57,924 bases of DNA. It comes from Planctomycetota bacterium (lineage in GTDB: Bacteria; Planctomycetota; Phycisphaerae; Phycisphaerales; UBA5793). A program made the position numbers and the translations under genes. The stretch is from the NCBI GenBank assembly GCA_963205185.1, contig CAUJHZ010000027.1, positions 1-57,924 of the forward strand. Reading direction: 5' to 3'. Numbering within the stretch: the first letter of the stretch is position 1; each line of letters opens with the position of its first letter. Shown here piece by piece: positions 8,626 through 57,924 of this stretch. The notes under the pieces are model-generated. The model was not told the origin of the DNA. It worked only from the letters and a program-made list of their open reading frames with translations, and did not search any database.

Positions 8626-10065
8626 TCACAGGCCGGCTACGTTGCTCGTGGTGCACGAGCCGCCCTGAATGAGTTGCAGGAATCCACCGCACGCCTGGTT
8701 GCCGGCATTGCCGGAGATTGAGCCGCTGCCGTTGCCAGTCGAGAAGACGCCCGGAGGAGTAACAATCTGAAGCTGGCTACCACTCAGGCCGAGCTGCGTG
8801 CCGGCGCACGGCTGACCGTTGGGAATGACGAAACTGCCTTGCGACGTCGCAAACAGCAGCGCCTGCTGCGCGTTGGGCGCAGCTCCCGACCAGCTGACGG
8901 TCACCTGCCCCGGGCACGTGCCGGTGAGGCTCAGCGTGTAGCCGCCGCCCGTGCAGGTCGTGTTCAGGTGCACGGTGATGTTGTTGCTGTCGCGGTTGCT
9001 CACGACGAGATCGGCCGAGCCGTTGCCGTCGAGATCGCCCGCTTCGGCCGACTCGGGATTGGCGCCACTGGCAAAGAGCGTCGAAGCGCCGAACGCGCCC
9101 GAGCCGTTGTTGAGCAGTACGCCGAAGTTTCCAGAACTCTCGTGCGTCGTGATGAGATCGAGCGAGCCGCTGCAATCGATGTCGGCGACGTTGACGTTGG
9201 ACGTGTCAAGCCCGCCGGTCGGGTAGTGCACGGGGCCGCTGAAAGCCATGCCCCCGCTGGCGAGGAACACTGTGGCGCTCTCGAAGTTGTCGCCGTTGGT
9301 CGCCGCGGCGATGTCATCGCGCCCGCTGCCGTTGAGATCGGCAGCGATGATGCCCTCGGGGCGGCGCTGGCCGCCGACGGAGAGGGTTCCGGCGGGACTG
9401 AATGAGCCGCTGCCGTTGTTGGCGAACAGCGAGATGCTGCGGTCGTCGTGGTTGGAGACGGCCAGGTCGTTGTCGCCATCGCCGTCGAAGTCGCCCAGTG
9501 CCGCGCCGCGCGGCTCGGCGCCGGCCGCCAGGGTCGTCACGGCGAACGAGCCGCTACCGTTATTGATCAGCACACTGGCGCTGTTGCTGTCGCGATTGGC
9601 CACGGCCAGGTCAGCGATGTTGTCTCCATTCAGGTCGGCCACGCTCAGGCCGCGCGGATTGGCTCCGACGGCGAACGAGCCGCTGACCGTGAACGAACCG
9701 GCGTTGTTAATGAGGATGGTGACGCGCCCGGTGTTCTGCAGCGCGACGGCCAGGTCCGCGTCCGTGTCGCCGTCGAAGTCGGCCGCGACGATCGAGCCGG
9801 CGCCGCTTCCACTCGGAAGTTGGATCGAAGCGCTCTGGTTGAGCGAGCCGTTGCCGCTGTTGAGCAGGATGATCACGCGATCGGGCGTGTCAACCGTCAC
9901 GGCCACGTCGAGCCCGCCGGCATTGTCGAAGTTGGCAATCGCAGAGTCGGCGGGCCGCGGGCCAACCGCATAAGGAACCGGGGCCTGGAAACTCACTTGC
10001 CCGAAAGCGCTGGCGCCCAGGAACAGGCTGGGGGCGAGCAAAAGGAATCGTCGTCGAAGTGTCAT
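8626..10065 (-). CDS. Secreted FG-GAP/VCBS-repeat beta-propeller protein with Cys-rich C-terminal module
   Basis: From the ATG at 10065, preceded by GAAAGGAGAGCC, the product has 479 residues. A signal peptide (LLLAPSLFLGASAFGQ) is followed by about six or seven repeats of the form ADFDGDGxxDLAVxNxxxxxxxVLxNNGSGSF, the calcium-binding FG-GAP/VCBS blade of extracellular propellers. The last ~105 residues are a separate module with four cysteines in the motifs CPG, PCAGTxLGL, ACGGFLQL and CTTSNVA; the same module ends the protein at 43079-45517. No PEP-CTERM or other known sorting signal is seen. Function is unknown; such propellers usually bind ligands or surfaces outside the cell. Confidence 0.82.
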   Translation of the reverse strand: MTLRRRFLLLAPSLFLGASAFGQVSFQAPVPYAVGPRPADSAIANFDNAGGLDVAVTVDTPDRVIILLNSGNGSLNQSASIQLPSGSGAGSIVAADFDGDTDADLAVALQNTGRVTILINNAGSFTVSGSFAVGANPRGLSVADLNGDNIADLAVANRDSNSASVLINNGSGSFAVTTLAAGAEPRGAALGDFDGDGDNDLAVSNHDDRSISLFANNGSGSFSPAGTLSVGGQRRPEGIIAADLNGSGRDDIAAATNGDNFESATVFLASGGMAFSGPVHYPTGGLDTSNVNVADIDCSGSLDLITTHESSGNFGVLLNNGSGAFGASTLFASGANPESAEAGDLDGNGSADLVVSNRDSNNITVHLNTTCTGGGYTLSLTGTCPGQVTVSWSGAAPNAQQALLFATSQGSFVIPNGQPCAGTQLGLSGSQLQIVTPPGVFSTGNGSGSISGNAGNQACGGFLQLIQGGSCTTSNVAGL

Positions 10066-10261
10066 GGTGGCTCTCCTTTCGAGGTCTCTCGAAATCGCGA
10101 TGAAGTCCGTCGTGTCCGGCGCCGAGGGGCGGCGCCGACCCAGGCCGGTGGATTGCACGTGCAGTCCTGACTGACCCAGCCTTAGTCGATGGAACGGCGG
10201 TTTGTGAAATGCCCGCCTGCGGCTTTCGCCGCAGGCGGGAGGAGGAGGAAGTGGTGTGGCG

Positions 10262-10687
10262 TTACTGAATCTGCACGAACGAGGCCGAGATGCCCTGCCC
10301 GCCCCGTCCGACGCGGATGACGTCGTCGGTGTTGATGCGCGGGCCGGTGGGGCGGCCGTCGGCGCCGGGCGTGACGCCGAAGATGTCCTTGCGGAACGTG
10401 CCGCGGCCGAAGCCATTGGTCACCATGGTGCCGACGACGCGGCCGTTGATGGTGATCTGCAGAGTCATGTTCTGCGGGGCGTTCTCGACCTGGACCTCGA
10501 GGGTCTGGTCAAGCAGGCCGTTCTCGGGCGACTCTTTGTACTTGGCCTTGAGGACGACCCCGTTCTGCGTGGCGTTGGCTTCCCAGATCTTGTCGTCGGG
10601 GTTCGCCTGGGCCGAAGCGGTGTTGAACGCCATGAGGGCAAGCACGAGAACCGAAAGCAGCGAGGTGATTTTGCGAGCGGAAAACAT
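10262..10687 (-). CDS. Small secreted protein, function unknown
   Basis: A 141-residue product with a clear signal peptide (MFSARKITSLLSVLVLALMAFNTASA) and a mature part of about 115 residues that is polar, Gly/Asn/Asp-rich, has no cysteine and looks beta-stranded (LEVQVENAPQNMTLQITING). AGGAGAG stands 6 nt before the ATG. The gene is notable for a consensus sigma-54 promoter upstream (10792-10809), implying activation by an enhancer-binding regulator. I do not recognise the family. Confidence 0.75.
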   Translation of the reverse strand: MFSARKITSLLSVLVLALMAFNTASAQANPDDKIWEANATQNGVVLKAKYKESPENGLLDQTLEVQVENAPQNMTLQITINGRVVGTMVTNGFGRGTFRKDIFGVTPGADGRPTGPRINTDDVIRVGRGGQGISASFVQIQ

Positions 10688-10809: not shown

Positions 10810-11090
10810 AATCGCGCCGCGGAGCGGCGATGCGCGCGGCAACAGGCGCGCCGATCCTCGCAAACAAGCACTAATACAGCGGTTTTAAGGGGTTCTTGAG
10901 CCCTTTCCAAGGCAGGAAAGAGACATGAAGACGGGCCCACCAGTCGCGCCGGTGACGGATCCGATCGCGTCCGCTGGCGACCGATTGGTGGTGTTCGGGC
11001 GTAAAACTTTGGCCAGTAGGTTTCCCGATGGAAAGGAATGCCCGTCGAGCAAACGGACGAAAATCGGGGAAGAAACCCTGATTAACTCTC

Positions 11091-11118
11091 TTGCAATGCC
11101 CCCGGTTTTCGATAACAT
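11091..11118 (+). promoter_or_regulatory. Candidate promoter of the prepilin-like gene
   Basis: TTGCAA (11091-11096), a 16-nt spacer and TAACAT (11113-11118) lie about 65 nt before the GTG start at 11183. A TTGACA at 11138-11143 is present too but has no -10 partner at a proper distance. Confidence 0.35.
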
Positions 11119-11182
11119 AGACGCTCGGGTGCAGCGGTTGACACTGCTGCCCGTTTGCGCGTGCCCATGTGGAAGCGAAGAA

Positions 11183-11971
11183 GTGAGAGACTCCTCCACA
11201 TTCCTGACCGCAGGCCGGTTCTCCAGCCGCGCTTTTACGCTGCTTGAGCTGCTGGTGACGATGTCGCTCGTCGCGATCCTCATTTCCCTGCTGGTGCCGG
11301 GCGTGCAGTCCGTCCGCGCTCGATCTCGCGCCTATGCGTGCCAGGTCAACCTGCGCAGCGTGTCATTTGATTTTGCGATCTTCGCCGACTCGTCGCTGCA
11401 CGGCAACCGAGGCGACGATACCGGCGCCACGTTCCGGCTCGAGACTTTCCAGGAATCGCAGTACGGCATCGATGAGTTCTGGCGGCGGCCCGGGTCGGTC
11501 TTCACCGGCGGCGTCGCCGACCTCGGCGTCATGGGCTGCGATGAAGTGCGCGGCGAGATCGTTCTCCGCTCCGATACACCCTGCCGCAGCGGAGCCGTGC
11601 AGCCGGCCCGAAACGTCTCTTATGCCTTCAACCTGCAACTGGACTCGCCGGAGCAGTTTATCGATGGGTTCTGGGTGGCGCGGCAAGTGCCGTTGACTGA
11701 CCGCATCCTCAACTCCCCCGTTGCGCGGCCCGACGAGATCCCGCTCCTGTGGGACATCGACGGCGCGGTCGCGTTTGAGAGAGGCATTACGCCGCACTAC
11801 TCCGCCGCGCCCAGCAAGCCCGGCCGGCCCTATGGCGACGGGCAGGAGTGGTTCCCCTCGCTGCGGCACGGCGGAAACGTCCAGATCGCCGCCCTCGATG
11901 GCTCGGTGCGCGCGACCGATTCGCCGCTGGAAGACAGTGACTGGCGCTGGGATTACCGGCCCGTTCACTGA
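11183..11971 (+). CDS. Prepilin-type (DUF1559-like) secreted protein
   Basis: The start is taken as GTG 11183 because GGAAG stands upstream at proper distance; an ATG at 11096 is the alternative. The 262-residue product carries a type IV prepilin leader, SSRA|FTLLELLVTMSLVAIL, cut before Phe with Glu at position +5, then a helix (VQSVRARSRAYACQVNLRSV). The C-terminal half has RHGGNVQIAALDGSVRA, matching the H-x-G-x-x-N...F-x-D-G-S ending of Planctomycetota DUF1559 pseudopilins. It is likely processed by a prepilin peptidase and assembled in a secretion pseudopilus or surface structure. The -1 residue is Ala rather than the usual Gly. Confidence 0.8.
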   Translation: MRDSSTFLTAGRFSSRAFTLLELLVTMSLVAILISLLVPGVQSVRARSRAYACQVNLRSVSFDFAIFADSSLHGNRGDDTGATFRLETFQESQYGIDEFWRRPGSVFTGGVADLGVMGCDEVRGEIVLRSDTPCRSGAVQPARNVSYAFNLQLDSPEQFIDGFWVARQVPLTDRILNSPVARPDEIPLLWDIDGAVAFERGITPHYSAAPSKPGRPYGDGQEWFPSLRHGGNVQIAALDGSVRATDSPLEDSDWRWDYRPVH

Positions 11972-32783: not shown

Positions 32784-32820
32784 CTCAAGAAGTGGTTTCT
32801 TGAGTTTCTGTCGACAGAAA
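32784..32820 (+). promoter_or_regulatory. Hairpin plus 16-bp perfect palindrome in the leader
   Basis: CTCAAGAA-GTGGT-TTCTTGAG (32784-32804) forms an 8-bp perfect stem, and directly abutting it TTTCTGTCGACAGAAA (32805-32820) is its own reverse complement. The pair lies 21 nt before the ATG. The palindrome could be a repressor operator, or both could be RNA elements controlling translation of the PEP-CTERM gene. Confidence 0.5.
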
Positions 32821-32841
32821 TTGGTTTTGGAGGAGAAGAAA

Positions 32842-33471
32842 ATGAAGATAGCCTTACTTGCAGGCGCCGCGGCGCTCGCTCTGTCTGGAGCGGCGTTCGG
32901 CGACGTGTGGGCCGAGCAGGGCGATGCCGGACAGTCCATCGCGACTGCCCAGCACACCGTCGGCCTCGGATCGCTGGACGCGATTCGCGGTCATCACGAC
33001 CCCAATGACGTGGACATCTATTGCATCCGCATTCTCGATATCCGGTCCTTCAGTGCGAGCACCGTGGGCGGCACCAGCATCGACACGCAGCTGTTCCTCT
33101 TCGATGCGAACGGCTACGGCGTGACCCACAACGACGATGATCCGGCCGGCGGCAGCCTGCAGTCCAAGATCACCGGCGCGTTCGTCACTTCGCCGGGCCT
33201 CTACTACCTGGCCATCAGCCAGTACAACGCCGATCCGTCGTCGATCTCCGGCTTGATCTGGGCCAACAGCCCGTTCAATGTCGAGCGCGCTCCGGATGGC
33301 CCCGGCGCCGGTGACCCGCTCAACTCGTGGAGCGTTTCGGGCACCACCGACGGCGACTACTCGATCGCTCTCGTCGGCGCGGGTTTCTGCGAAATCCCCG
33401 CTCCCAGCGCGCTGGCGCTGCTCGGACTCGGCGGAATCGCCGCGGCCGGCCGCCGTCGTCGTCAGGCGTGA
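32842..33471 (+). CDS. PEP-CTERM-type exported protein
   Basis: A 209-residue secreted protein: signal peptide (MKIALLAGAAALALSGAAFG), a beta-sandwich body of about 160 residues with the pre-peptidase-like pattern DVDIYCIRI...DTQLFLFDANGYGV and PGLYYLAISQYN, and a C-terminal sorting signal IPAPSALALLGLGGIAAAGRRRRQA (Pro-rich start, one hydrophobic helix, basic end). This tail is recognised by exosortase-type machinery that links export with exopolysaccharide. GGAGGAG precedes the ATG. It is monocistronic: own leader upstream and a terminator downstream. Confidence 0.85.
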   Translation: MKIALLAGAAALALSGAAFGDVWAEQGDAGQSIATAQHTVGLGSLDAIRGHHDPNDVDIYCIRILDIRSFSASTVGGTSIDTQLFLFDANGYGVTHNDDDPAGGSLQSKITGAFVTSPGLYYLAISQYNADPSSISGLIWANSPFNVERAPDGPGAGDPLNSWSVSGTTDGDYSIALVGAGFCEIPAPSALALLGLGGIAAAGRRRRQA

Positions 33472-42769: not shown

Positions 42770-43078
42770 GGGGGACAGGCCTTTCTGCTGCGGGTCTGCT
42801 CAAGAAACGGGAGTGCTCGCCGGCACGTCCGGGCCGGCATTCATCCGTTCATCCGGATAGTTGGATGTAGTGACAGGTCGATGATAGGCTGGTCGCACGG
42901 CGGGGGACAGGGGAGCTGCGCCTGGCTGGCTAGCGATCGAGATTGGCCGGCGTAAGTCATGAGGATTATGGCCTCTTTTCCGAACTTTGCGGATTGGTCG
43001 GTGCCTGGGCAGCGCCCCTTCGGTTAGACTGTAGTAGAAGCCGCTTCTATCATGAATCGAGCAAAGGAGGGTCAGCCG
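42770..43078. other. Divergent region between metK and the propeller gene
   Basis: 309 nt without a gene. On the minus strand GGATGAAC and GGATGAAT stand in tandem beside CCGGATG. A strong AAGGAGG Shine-Dalgarno for the propeller gene is at its right end (about 43065). No riboswitch or RNA gene is seen. Confidence 0.45.
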
Positions 43079-45517
43079 ATGCAGGATCGGGCTCATTCGA
43101 TGGGAGGTGATGCTCGAACGTCGCGCTGCTGGAGCGTGGTGATCGCGCTGAGCGTGGCATGGCTCACGTCGCGCGCGATGGCGCAGTGCGACACATGGGT
43201 CGCCGCCGGACAGGGGTATTGGCAGGGTGGTGAAGTCCAGGCTGTCGTTGAGTACCATGGCGAACTCATCGCCGGTGGTTACTTTACCAACGCCGGTGGA
43301 GCCGAGGCGATGCGGCTGGCGCGCTGGGATGGCCTTGCCTGGCGCCCGTTCGGCGCCGGCGTCAGTGGCACTTCGTTCGTGGGCGTTTCGGCCCTGCTGG
43401 TGAGCGGCGATGACCTGTACATCGGCGGGAGCTTCACCGAAGTGGACGGCGTCCCAGCGGACAATGTTGCCCGGTGGGATGGATTTGAGTGGCACCCCTT
43501 GGGCGATGGTACTGACGGGCCCGTCAAGTGCATGACCATCTTCCAAGACGAACTGCACGTCGGGGGGTACTTCGAGCAGGCAGGCACGATCCGCGCCAAC
43601 GCCGTCGCCCGATGGGACGGCAGTGGATGGCATGCGCTCGAACGCGGCGTGCGACAATACAACGGTTCGCCGGGCGCTGCGCTTGCGCTGGTTGAGTACC
43701 AGGGCGAGCTCGTGGCCGTCGGTGACTTCTTACGCGCCGGATCGGAAATCGTCAATAACGTGGCCCGCTGGAACGGAGCCTCATGGTCAAGCCTTCAGAA
43801 CGGCGCGAACTCCTCCCTCAATACCGCCTGCGTTTTCCAGGATGTCCTTTTCATCGGCGGCTCACTTACCGGCGCGGGCGGCCAGGATGCCCCCGGAGTA
43901 GCGGCTTGGAACGGCCAACGATGGTTTCCCGTCGGAGAAGGGTTCGGCCCCGCCCCTCAATCGCACGACGTGCGCTCTCTTGTGGTTTGGAACGACACGC
44001 TGTGTGCCGGCGGGTCGTTTGAATCGTCCGGTGGTCGCACCGTCTGGCGAGTGGCGGCCTTCGTGAATGGGCAGTGGCAGCCTCTTGGCTCTGGGGCAAG
44101 CTCGCCCGTCTACGCGCTCGGTTCCTACCAGGGCGTCCTGGTCATCGCAGGGTCATTCGCTGAGGTGGACGGCCTTCAAGTCAACTCGATCGCTCGCTGG
44201 AATGGCGAGGCGTGGACGGGCTTCGGCGGCGGCCTCCGGCGCCCCGGCGGTGCGGATGCGCTGACGGAATTCGAAGGGGAACTGGTCGCTTCGGGAACAT
44301 TCTTCGGCCTCCCTGAACAGGGTTTCGGTCCGATTGCGCGCTGGGATGGTCAGACCTGGCGCGGCATACCAGATGGCCAGTCGTTCATCTTGTCCAATAT
44401 TGACAGCCTCGCGGTCTACAACGGTGAACTGATTGCCGGCGGGACGTTTAAGGGCCGCTCAACTCGGTCGATCGTCGCCAGCATAATGCGATGGGATGGC
44501 TCCCGGTGGGATTCACTTGGAGATGGAGTCAACGGGCGGGTTCGATCGCTCCTCGCTCACGCTGGCTTCCTGGTCGCCGGGGGTCACTTTACCGAAGCCG
44601 GTGGCCATGGGGCGGAGCATGTAGCGTTATGGGATGGCGACGACTGGAGATCCATGGGTGCGGGATTGGACAGCACAGTTCTGACCTTGGCGCCATACCA
44701 GAGCAGCGTCGCAGCCGGGGGGTACTTTCGCGCTTCCGGAAGGCGCGACGTGAATCGAGTTGCCTGGTGGGATGGACAGCGCTGGCTTCCTCTCGGAGAA
44801 GGGATGGATGGTGCGGTCGCCTCGCTCGTCGTCTTCAATGGCGATCTCATCGCCGGCGGTGAGTTTCTCAATGCTGGAGGACGGCCGGCGAATCATGTGG
44901 CGCGATGGGATGGCGAACAGTGGCACAGCCTTGGTCTCGGGTTTGACGATGAGGTGGTGGCTCTGGAGGTATACAACGGCGATCTCGTCGCCGTCGGTGA
45001 ATTCTCAACCGCCGACGGAGAGCCGGCTCGGCACGTCGCGCGGTGGGACGGCGTGCGCTGGCGCCCAATGCATCTCGGATTGGGCTTTCCCGCCCTCTCG
45101 CTGCGCACGTATCAGAATGCACTCGTGGTCGTGGGCATGTTTGAAGAGGCGGGAGGCCTGGCAGCGTATGGTTCGGCCCAATGGCGCGATTGCAATCTGA
45201 GCATTCAACTTGACGTGAACACGACATGCCCCGGCGGCGGGCCGATCGAGGTCTCTTGGACCGGCGCGACGCCTGATGCCAGCGTGGCGATCATCTTTGC
45301 CGCCGCCACCGGCAACTTCGCCGTGCCCTACGGCCCATGCGCCGGGACGAGGCTCGGCCTCGGTGCGCAGGCAATCCGCCTTGCGGCGACCGCCCGATCC
45401 GATGCGCAAGGTGCCGGTGCGATTCAGGGGACCGCCCCCCCGGCCGCCTGCGGCGGTTATCTCCAGCTGCTTGATCTGACCACCTGCCAAACGAGCAGCG
45501 TCGCGCGCATCGAGTGA
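43079..45517 (+). CDS. Secreted 13-repeat beta-propeller protein with Cys-rich C-terminal module
   Basis: ATG 43079 is chosen over one nine codons upstream because AAGGAGG stands at proper distance. The 812-residue product has a signal peptide (VIALSVAWLTSRAMAQ), then about 13 repeats of ~50 residues of the form VARWDGxxWxxLGxGxxGxVxAL...GxLxAGGxFxxAGG, which should fold as beta-propeller blades. Residues about 705-812 are the module shared with the FG-GAP protein at 8626-10065, with cysteines in CPGG, PCAGTRLGL, ACGGYLQL and CQTSSVA. There is no PEP-CTERM or dockerin. It is probably a large extracellular or surface protein of unknown ligand. Confidence 0.8.
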   Translation: MQDRAHSMGGDARTSRCWSVVIALSVAWLTSRAMAQCDTWVAAGQGYWQGGEVQAVVEYHGELIAGGYFTNAGGAEAMRLARWDGLAWRPFGAGVSGTSFVGVSALLVSGDDLYIGGSFTEVDGVPADNVARWDGFEWHPLGDGTDGPVKCMTIFQDELHVGGYFEQAGTIRANAVARWDGSGWHALERGVRQYNGSPGAALALVEYQGELVAVGDFLRAGSEIVNNVARWNGASWSSLQNGANSSLNTACVFQDVLFIGGSLTGAGGQDAPGVAAWNGQRWFPVGEGFGPAPQSHDVRSLVVWNDTLCAGGSFESSGGRTVWRVAAFVNGQWQPLGSGASSPVYALGSYQGVLVIAGSFAEVDGLQVNSIARWNGEAWTGFGGGLRRPGGADALTEFEGELVASGTFFGLPEQGFGPIARWDGQTWRGIPDGQSFILSNIDSLAVYNGELIAGGTFKGRSTRSIVASIMRWDGSRWDSLGDGVNGRVRSLLAHAGFLVAGGHFTEAGGHGAEHVALWDGDDWRSMGAGLDSTVLTLAPYQSSVAAGGYFRASGRRDVNRVAWWDGQRWLPLGEGMDGAVASLVVFNGDLIAGGEFLNAGGRPANHVARWDGEQWHSLGLGFDDEVVALEVYNGDLVAVGEFSTADGEPARHVARWDGVRWRPMHLGLGFPALSLRTYQNALVVVGMFEEAGGLAAYGSAQWRDCNLSIQLDVNTTCPGGGPIEVSWTGATPDASVAIIFAAATGNFAVPYGPCAGTRLGLGAQAIRLAATARSDAQGAGAIQGTAPPAACGGYLQLLDLTTCQTSSVARIE

Positions 45518-56899: not shown

Positions 56900-57799
56900 A
56901 TGCGGCTGGCGCCACTCGGACACGGAGGCGGCATCGCGCGGGCGTACGGGTTGATCGTTGCCGTCGCGATGTTGTGGAACGGAGCATCAAGTCTCGGCCA
57001 GCCCTGTGCGGACTGGGTGCAGCGAGATGATGCCAATCCTGATTGGCCGCGCGCTCTGAGCGGACCCGCCATGACATTTGAACGATCCCAACAGCAGATA
57101 CTCGTCGTCGGCCGGTACTACGGTGGTAACTCGACTGAAACATGGGGTTGGGACGGAAGTGGATGGCAGTTTCTCTCGCCAGGCGAATTGCCTGCGCGGA
57201 ATGCCCACGTCATGGCATATGACACCGCGCGTGACACCGCCGTCCTCTTCGGGGGTATCGTCGGTCGCGATCCAGTGCAGGAAACATGGGAACGAGGATC
57301 CTCCGGGGTGTGGACGCTCGTATCGTCTACCGGTCCGCCTCCTCGCTTTTCCACTGCGATGGCGTACGACGCGCGACGAGGCGTAACCGTGCTCTTCGGA
57401 GGATACTCGTCAAGCACTCGGGAATTGGGAGACACTTGGGAGTGGGACGGCCAAGTCTGGACCCATGTTGCCGACTCGGGGCCGAGTCGGCGCGACTCGC
57501 ACGCGATGGCGTACGACAGCCAGCGCGGGGTAACGGTGCTTTATGGCGGCTCTGGCCCCTCCCAACGCCACACGGACACTTGGGAGTGGGACGGCGCGGA
57601 GTGGACCCTCGTGGATGAAGTCGGCCTTGGAGCCCGTGCGGGAGCCAAGATGACCTACGACGAACAGCGCGGGCACTCTCTCTTGTTCGGCGGCGAAGAT
57701 GAGACAGGAGCAGACCGGGAGGATCTCTGGGCGTGGGATGGCGAACAGTGGAGGCTACTCAGCACGGCCGGCCCCGGTTCAGATCTAGAGCGTTCCTAA
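56900..57799 (+). CDS. Secreted kelch-like propeller protein, C-terminus probably cut by an IS630 insertion
   Basis: GAAAGAGG precedes the ATG at 56900. The 299-residue frame has a signal peptide (IVAVAMLWNGASSLGQ) and about five kelch-type repeats with the core DTWEWDGxxWTxVxxxGPxxRxxHAMAYDxxRGVTVLFGG. It stops shortly after the last blade, with GSDLERS. The final codons lie within what seems to be the left end of an IS630 element that begins after the TA at 57786-57787, so the natural protein was probably longer. By analogy with the propeller at 43079 it may have lost more blades and a C-terminal module. Confidence 0.7.
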   Translation: MRLAPLGHGGGIARAYGLIVAVAMLWNGASSLGQPCADWVQRDDANPDWPRALSGPAMTFERSQQQILVVGRYYGGNSTETWGWDGSGWQFLSPGELPARNAHVMAYDTARDTAVLFGGIVGRDPVQETWERGSSGVWTLVSSTGPPPRFSTAMAYDARRGVTVLFGGYSSSTRELGDTWEWDGQVWTHVADSGPSRRDSHAMAYDSQRGVTVLYGGSGPSQRHTDTWEWDGAEWTLVDEVGLGARAGAKMTYDEQRGHSLLFGGEDETGADREDLWAWDGEQWRLLSTAGPGSDLERS

Positions 57800-57924
57800 T
57801 CCAAGCGTAGCGCGGTTCGGCGCTTGTTCGGTTGCGCCAGGCGGCGGCGTCATCTATGGTGTGTGCGACTCATGTTCGAGTCGGACAAGGAGCCAGGATG
57901 GCTGGACCGTATTCGAAGGATCTG
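57788..57924 (+). mobile_element. IS630-family insertion sequence, left end (partial)
   Basis: GAGCGTTCCTAATCCAAG begins right after a TA dinucleotide (57786-57787). IS630 elements insert at TA and have terminal repeats starting with GAGCG-like sequence. The element is followed by a transposase start at 57898 and continues beyond the window. Confidence 0.6.
57898..57924 (+). CDS. IS630-family transposase, N-terminus (partial)
   Basis: Only nine codons are in the window: MAGPYSKDL, preceded by AGGAGCC. This is the characteristic opening of IS630 transposases (MAxPYSxDLRxRV, the start of their helix-turn-helix). The rest lies outside the window, so integrity is unknown. Confidence 0.7.

Follow-up and report, generated by a model that had tools for sequence, protein, structure and literature searches.

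An almost strictly C-terminal module with a predicted immunoglobulin-like fold on putatively exported Planctomycetota proteins, possibly involved in their sorting or attachment

The window analysed here, a stretch of 57,924 nucleotides from a Planctomycetota genome (GCA_963205185.1, contig CAUJHZ010000027.1), carries two copies of a cysteine-containing module which belong to a large family of C-terminal domains. Instead of the two-copy feature reported in the initial annotation, this module is distributed over the whole genome, with 111 copies assigned to a first class (class I) and about 27 more divergent ones to a second (class II), and represents an apparently undescribed domain, predicted to be immunoglobulin (Ig)-like, located almost strictly at the C-terminus of its carriers. 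The likeliest of the roles considered, to which we give about an even chance, is the sorting or attachment of these carriers, in a manner resembling the C-terminal domains (CTDs) of the type IX secretion system (T9SS) but without membership of that family. The features of the window are the following.

8626 to 8934, minus strand: class I C-terminal module, copy 1 (search and alignment match)
8626 to 10416, minus strand: host of copy 1, 596 residues, FG-GAP repeat protein with the C-terminal module (open reading frame and Pfam)
43052 to 45517, plus strand: host of copy 2, 821 residues, signal-peptide-like start, beta-propeller repeats (Rax2 / DUF5122), then the module
45206 to 45517, plus strand: class I C-terminal module, copy 2, four cysteines, running up to the stop codon
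56825 to 57799, plus strand: kelch-repeat protein truncated by an insertion element (Pfam), its remainder likely on contig C46
57785 to 57924, no strand assigned: left end of an IS630-type element, bases 57791-57924 being 100% identical at seven places of the genome including the window

The four pairs of motifs quoted in the initial annotation could all be located, in frame, in the terminal parts of the open reading frames (ORFs) 43052-45517 (+) and 8626-10416 (-). According to an ad hoc signal-peptide rule, the host of copy 2 probably starts near 43100; its module, of about 104 residues, begins around 45206, some 15 bases inside the start first proposed, and ends at the stop codon. In a pairwise alignment, copies 1 and 2 are identical at 45 of 99 aligned residues, 19 of these 45 being encoded by the same codon. 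Since their nucleotide identity is only 54% (57, 68 and 37% at the three codon positions), they are old relatives and not recent DNA duplicates, and the opposition initially made between selection and duplication is valid for this pair. Chance likeness is excluded by a search of the same genome with the module only, which retrieved copy 1 at an E-value of 1.1e-19; for the five best paralogues the E-values lie between 6e-34 and 3e-32.

The genome of the window (G000; 4.55 Mb, 76 contigs) was found to hold many more copies, which the initial annotation had proposed to look for. The module-only query hit 142 places at E ≤ 1, and a profile built from 31 copies gave at least 139 matches at E ≤ 0.01 (150 of 234 candidates scored). 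The frames of 138 retrieved matches were each read, with the limit of class I drawn at E ≤ 6.1e-8. Six of the 111 class I modules are cut by a contig end, and for 89 of the 111 the portion read contains exactly four cysteines. Class II modules mostly possess two cysteines and mostly end with C-x-x-S-N/Q-x-V-x-x-x-F, 0-11 residues from the stop; the first of the 27 is intermediate, with four cysteines. The comparison of the two class profiles (hhalign 98.3%) supports the homology of both classes.

An additional copy is related to the kelch gene interrupted at the end of the window. A full-length copy of the IS630-type element on C35, which contains HTH_Tnp_IS630 and DDE_3, supplies the right end of the element. 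The same right end is found on C46, with 123 of 123 preceding bases identical, directly followed by an open kelch frame of 431 codons with a class I module (rank 64) at its end. C46 fits as the other half in its TA target and reading frame and, as judged by eye, in the phase of the repeats, so that it likely carries the remainder of the kelch gene, the left part of the element being present at seven places. The hint given in the initial annotation, that the missing end of the kelch protein beyond the element might hold another copy, thus led to a kelch frame with the module. C73, where an orphan module stands behind a transposase-like end, was rejected as the remainder as its element differs from that of the window; this piece has no Pfam match.

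All six genomes analysed from the family carry the module, with at least 116, 127, 146, 116, 81 and 60 matches, respectively (E ≤ 1e-5; 150 candidates scored per genome). Among 392 sampled Planctomycetota genomes, 15 were positive with the class I profile (E ≤ 1e-5; 12 candidates scored per genome), two of them from the genus, 11 from the family f61 and two others; G058 and G074 are counted in these 15, yet their matching copy suits class II better. The class II profile was positive in 42 of the 392 genomes and 35 of 267 genera (12-13 candidates scored per genome), and two f61 genomes hold 70 and 67 class II copies. No genome from the other families of the same order was positive with either profile in this sample of 392 (12-13 candidates scored per genome), and no module was found on plasmids. 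Among named records, the module occurs in Phycisphaerales bacterium UBA5793, in "uncultured planctomycete isolate PLA5" and in the MAG PLA1, which from their match coordinates are probably G303, G395 and G393; such genomes originate presumably from anammox-type reactors. A genus search and coinciding coordinates group the genome of the window with these Planctomycetota. The MAG PLA1 is titled Vicinamibacteraceae (WYBR01 records, L072 and others) and displays many module copies; this title is probably wrong. Searches of Pfam, NCBIfam and PDB sequences returned no significant match covering the module, and no description of it was found in the titles and abstract openings of the openly licensed literature.

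The position of the module is highly constrained. In the genome of the window, 108 of the 109 class I copies whose frame reaches a stop codon end 0-4 residues before it, the single non-terminal one (C25:130990) being followed by 106 further residues. Of the 111 closed modules from other genomes, 109 end at most 12 residues from the stop and two are not terminal, including the internal module of L051 (genome G317), which has 138 residues downstream. No protein with two modules was detected with the class I (0/136) or the class II profile (0/112), and the last residues of the module are conserved across passengers. These passengers are diverse: a Pfam scan of 104 class I proteins identified 31 families, none of them, among the matches listed, in more than eight proteins, with kelch, SBBP, FG-GAP, DUF4394, subtilase and other types represented and many repeat or propeller proteins. 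Under the ad hoc rule, a signal-peptide-like start was predicted for 94/102 complete class I frames and 25/26 class II frames, versus 35/78 module-free control ORFs from three family genomes; when it had to lie within the first 60 codons, the proportions were 73/102, 23/26 and 18/78, respectively. A looser rule retained 95/102 class I frames.

Some carriers have no passenger at all, as 19 of the 102 complete class I proteins consist of a signal peptide and the module (124-136 residues). These stand-alone copies are mostly arranged in tandem groups of two to five, on C57, C59, C7 and C1 as well as on C51 of the related genome G303, in clusters surrounded by genes which by eye appear housekeeping-like. 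For one of these groups, the neighbouring genes are shared between two species, and an orthologous pair from it shows a dN/dS of 0.20. Most stand-alone copies have lower class I profile scores than fused copies, and no single subunit dominates. On C7, C56 and C18 of G000, class II proteins resembling by eye the C-terminal part of subtilases (L172, L171, L250) adjoin class I modules, which are stand-alone on C7 and C56.

The AlphaFold model obtained with a 41-row alignment is all-beta, with eight strands (pLDDT 92.1, pTM 0.82). Neither Foldseek against the PDB nor a search of a viral structure library gave a match at E ≤ 0.001. With VIA-align, neocarzinostatin was on top (Z 10.1, rmsd 2.5, 87 residues aligned), tied within 1 with unrelated Ig-like structures; it was followed by the C-terminal domain of Nir2 (9.8), NKp46 (9.3) and pectate lyase (9.0), and antibody domains scored around 8. 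T9SS CTD structures did not appear among the matches listed in these fold searches, which does not argue against a resemblance. The predicted fold is an Ig-like sandwich and nothing more specific. Profile searches with class I gave no match in the PDB at E ≤ 10 and none in Pfam at E ≤ 1. For class II, the neocarzinostatin family (PF00960) was reached in one of 25 members at a Pfam E-value of 0.05, and the PDB profile search listed actinoxanthin at 0.13 and neocarzinostatin at 0.35-0.39, an unrelated pilin being better at 0.048, none of these values being significant. The best weak Pfam score of class II was for Peptidase_C25_C (PF03785), a gingipain-type Ig-like domain, at a non-significant E-value of 0.005 in 1/25; it thus concerns a single class II member, and the class I module has no match to this family.

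The four cysteine columns were compared in 244 aligned modules: 176 have all four, 51 only C51 and C100, 12 none and five another pattern, these five including L107, which is cut by a contig end, and L087, where the match stops short. As cysteines are kept or lost mostly as pairs, C14 is probably bonded to C88 and C51 to C100, a pairing deduced from co-variation, not from geometry, among rows related by descent. The disulfide partners of neocarzinostatin differ from these. The disulfide-fixed fold first proposed for the module is therefore only partly retained: the all-beta self-folding prediction and the pairwise co-variation agree with it, but disulfides are dispensable across the family, with one pair in 51/244 and neither in 12/244. 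A four-row alignment of the zero-cysteine variant yielded a model with a pLDDT of 37.5, and its profile matches that of class II (hhalign 98.8%); judging from this profile comparison only, the fold would persist without cysteines. Zero-cysteine variants were observed as nearby gene pairs in relatives of the family (L090:5409-7131 and L093:5390-7109).

Module and passenger have different histories at the DNA level in several pairs. In three related proteins from C63, C35 and C28, of which the one scanned contains FG-GAP_2, the DNA of the modules is 91-95% identical (dS 0.16-0.41) and that of the passengers 50-54% (dS from 1.9 to saturated), and two neighbours on C44 have a module 94% identical (dS 0.17) for 27% residue identity of their passengers. 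Copying at the DNA level, rightly dismissed for the window pair in the initial annotation, does occur elsewhere. Between the window copy and L072, from a related genome, the residue identity is 87.5% for the module and 41-42% for the passenger; the module has a dS of 0.55 and a dN/dS of 0.125, which indicates strong purifying selection on the aligned sequences of this pair, and the passenger dS exceeds 2. In 25-codon bins counted from the C-terminus of seven pairs, identity ranges from 0.67 to 1.0 in the final 100-125 codons and falls to 0.36-0.68 in the bin that follows; immediately beyond the stop, six pairs show 0.20-0.35 and one C44 pair 0.98. Concordant control pairs have similar module and passenger dS (L090/L093, 0.39 and 0.44; L088/L100, 0.45 and 0.53; L082/L092, 0.44 and 0.47), and one reverse case was found, C44:61467 against C76:272869, with passengers 80% and modules 74% identical in DNA. 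Because identity is much higher in the module DNA than in the passenger DNA and the change falls at the module edge, these alignments indicate that the module moves, or is converted, between genes as a unit, i.e. as a DNA cassette. This discordance constitutes a clear case of spread or conversion of a C-terminal module by recombination. Two contigs of G000, C34 (5-256) and C6 (5-256), open inside near-identical modules (L155 and L125, 98% in DNA), and the high identity of modules may itself break the assembly.

The CTD of type IX secretion is Ig-like. The review PMC10202324 depicts it as the secretion signal, of types A, B and C, on proteins restricted to Bacteroidota. The module resembles it as a conserved C-terminal domain present in more than one class on many unrelated Sec-exported proteins, and differs from it by its four-cysteine class, its stand-alone copies and its carriers, which are Planctomycetota. 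The location of a type IX CTD, C-terminal on a Sec-exported passenger, was also found for the module, export being predicted by the ad hoc rule. Among the 104 class I proteins compared with NCBIfam (E ≤ 0.001, 18 families matched), none matched the type A and B sorting domains TIGR04183 and TIGR04131. The only match named after T9SS was NF052323, in one member, at an E-value of 1.4e-5 and far below its cut-off; in the FG-GAP protein of the window, a match of this kind covers residues 256-351, outside the module. As no curated T9SS sorting model fits, T9SS membership is not claimed. Like the PEP-CTERM, LPXTG and GlyGly-CTERM tails presented in PMC3237569, the module is a C-terminal homology region common to many exported proteins. 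Those tails are tripartite and include a helix, whereas the module is predicted to be a folded domain and ends only 0-4 residues short of the stop codon, and neither a terminal hydrophobic helix nor a basic cluster was observed in the last 14 residues of the 138 frames inspected. In the window, a 223-residue ORF at 32800-33471 (+) has a terminal PEP-CTERM motif exactly at the Pfam gathering score, so that the genome may possess an exosortase-type system alongside the module. A type IV pilin-like N-terminal methylation motif is present in the ORF at 10925-11971 (+).

Candidates for a cognate machinery were searched in genomes with and without the module. SprA was matched in 0/18 genomes, but also in 0/14 controls. 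C25 peptidases were detected in 6/6 family genomes, 3/4 f61 genomes and 0/12 order-mates (22 genomes), by a search that was also silent in control genomes, and neither of the two encoded by the genome of the window bears a module. One C25 peptidase gene (G000:C35:60186-61361, minus strand) adjoins a stand-alone module (61711-62010, plus strand). Peptidase_C25 was rejected as a specific partner: it occurs phylum-wide in 186/392 genomes, including other families of the order, and in 25/42 genomes with class II versus 161/350 without (Fisher p = 0.10). VKOR, involved in disulfide formation, shows no correlation with the module (2/6 family genomes, 0/4 f61, 6/12 order-mates). The neighbourhoods of class II genes were also compared in 17 genomes with one to five copies (20 loci, some of which are truncated at contig ends; 254 ORFs chosen on composition), following the strategy of PMC3237569. 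Five neighbour groups recur in three to six genomes, namely two of FG-GAP proteins, one each of protein kinases and of ECF sigma factors, and a last one without Pfam match, and no convincing partner was found among them in these 17 low-copy genomes. The group without Pfam match, a secreted-looking family, was observed near class II genes of three genomes (L275:10258-11622, L278:13706-14932 and L286:7494-8837, all on the minus strand).

The terminal position, the single module per protein, the export signals, the diversity of passengers and the family-wide abundance are thus characteristic of a C-terminal domain that serves in sorting or attachment. Functions of this type have precedents; for the domain itself, none of the libraries searched returned a significant match. 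We infer a mechanism in which passengers would be exported by Sec and the module would fold in the periplasm, where class I would acquire two disulfides, probably between C14 and C88 and between C51 and C100. The folded module, together with its conserved C-terminal edge C-x-T-S-N-V-x-x-I, could then be recognised by an envelope machine or a surface scaffold, by which propellers, kelch and FG-GAP proteins, subtilases and other passengers would be brought to the cell surface or kept there. Recombination would spread the module between genes and renew it as a DNA cassette. Against this reading stand the failure to find a cognate machine among the candidates searched and the few non-terminal copies, one of 109 here and two of 111 in other genomes. 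The 19/102 proteins limited to a signal peptide and the module go unexplained by a mere sorting tag, and these stand-alone copies leave room for a role in a matrix or in co-assembly: they could polymerise into a surface layer or matrix, where passengers would be displayed through their module joining the lattice. This explanation, ranked second and possible although rather doubtful, agrees with the frequency of the stand-alone copies, their tandem groups of two to five, one of which keeps the same neighbours in two species, and the dN/dS of 0.20 of the orthologous pair. On the other hand, most of them score below the fused copies, none appears as a dominant subunit, and a lattice domain need not be limited to the C-terminus.

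A ligand-binding domain, docking secreted proteins on extracellular material through a polysaccharide, a lipid or a small molecule, would be in line with the Ig-like fold, the presence of neocarzinostatin-type binding proteins among the structural neighbours and the many repeat and propeller passengers. Binding modules are usually also internal, N-terminal or in tandem, which is opposed to the 108/109 terminal copies and the 0/136 proteins with two modules, and Nir2, NKp46 and pectate lyase are tied with neocarzinostatin or near it, so that this match may reflect the fold only; we regard such a function as unlikely. It is less probable still that the module has no dedicated role other than a stable C-terminal cap which would protect exported proteins from proteolysis and spread by duplication. 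The patchy distribution, the copying at the DNA level and the tolerated loss of cysteines would suit such a cap, but the last residues are conserved across passengers and the pair tested displays strong purifying selection.

Sorting or attachment of the passengers hence remains our preferred reading. The finding of at least 139 matches in one genome, without significant Pfam or NCBIfam match, hints at a main protein route to the surface or to the outside in these Planctomycetota. With a probability that we estimate as somewhat short of even, this family and the separately expanded f61 could possess an undescribed sorting or surface-display system on a scale similar to that of type IX secretion; it would recognise a folded C-terminal domain with disulfides, and new passengers would be re-tagged with this domain as a DNA cassette by recombination. 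If the module is indeed a sorting domain, a predicted location would be gained for every protein that carries it.
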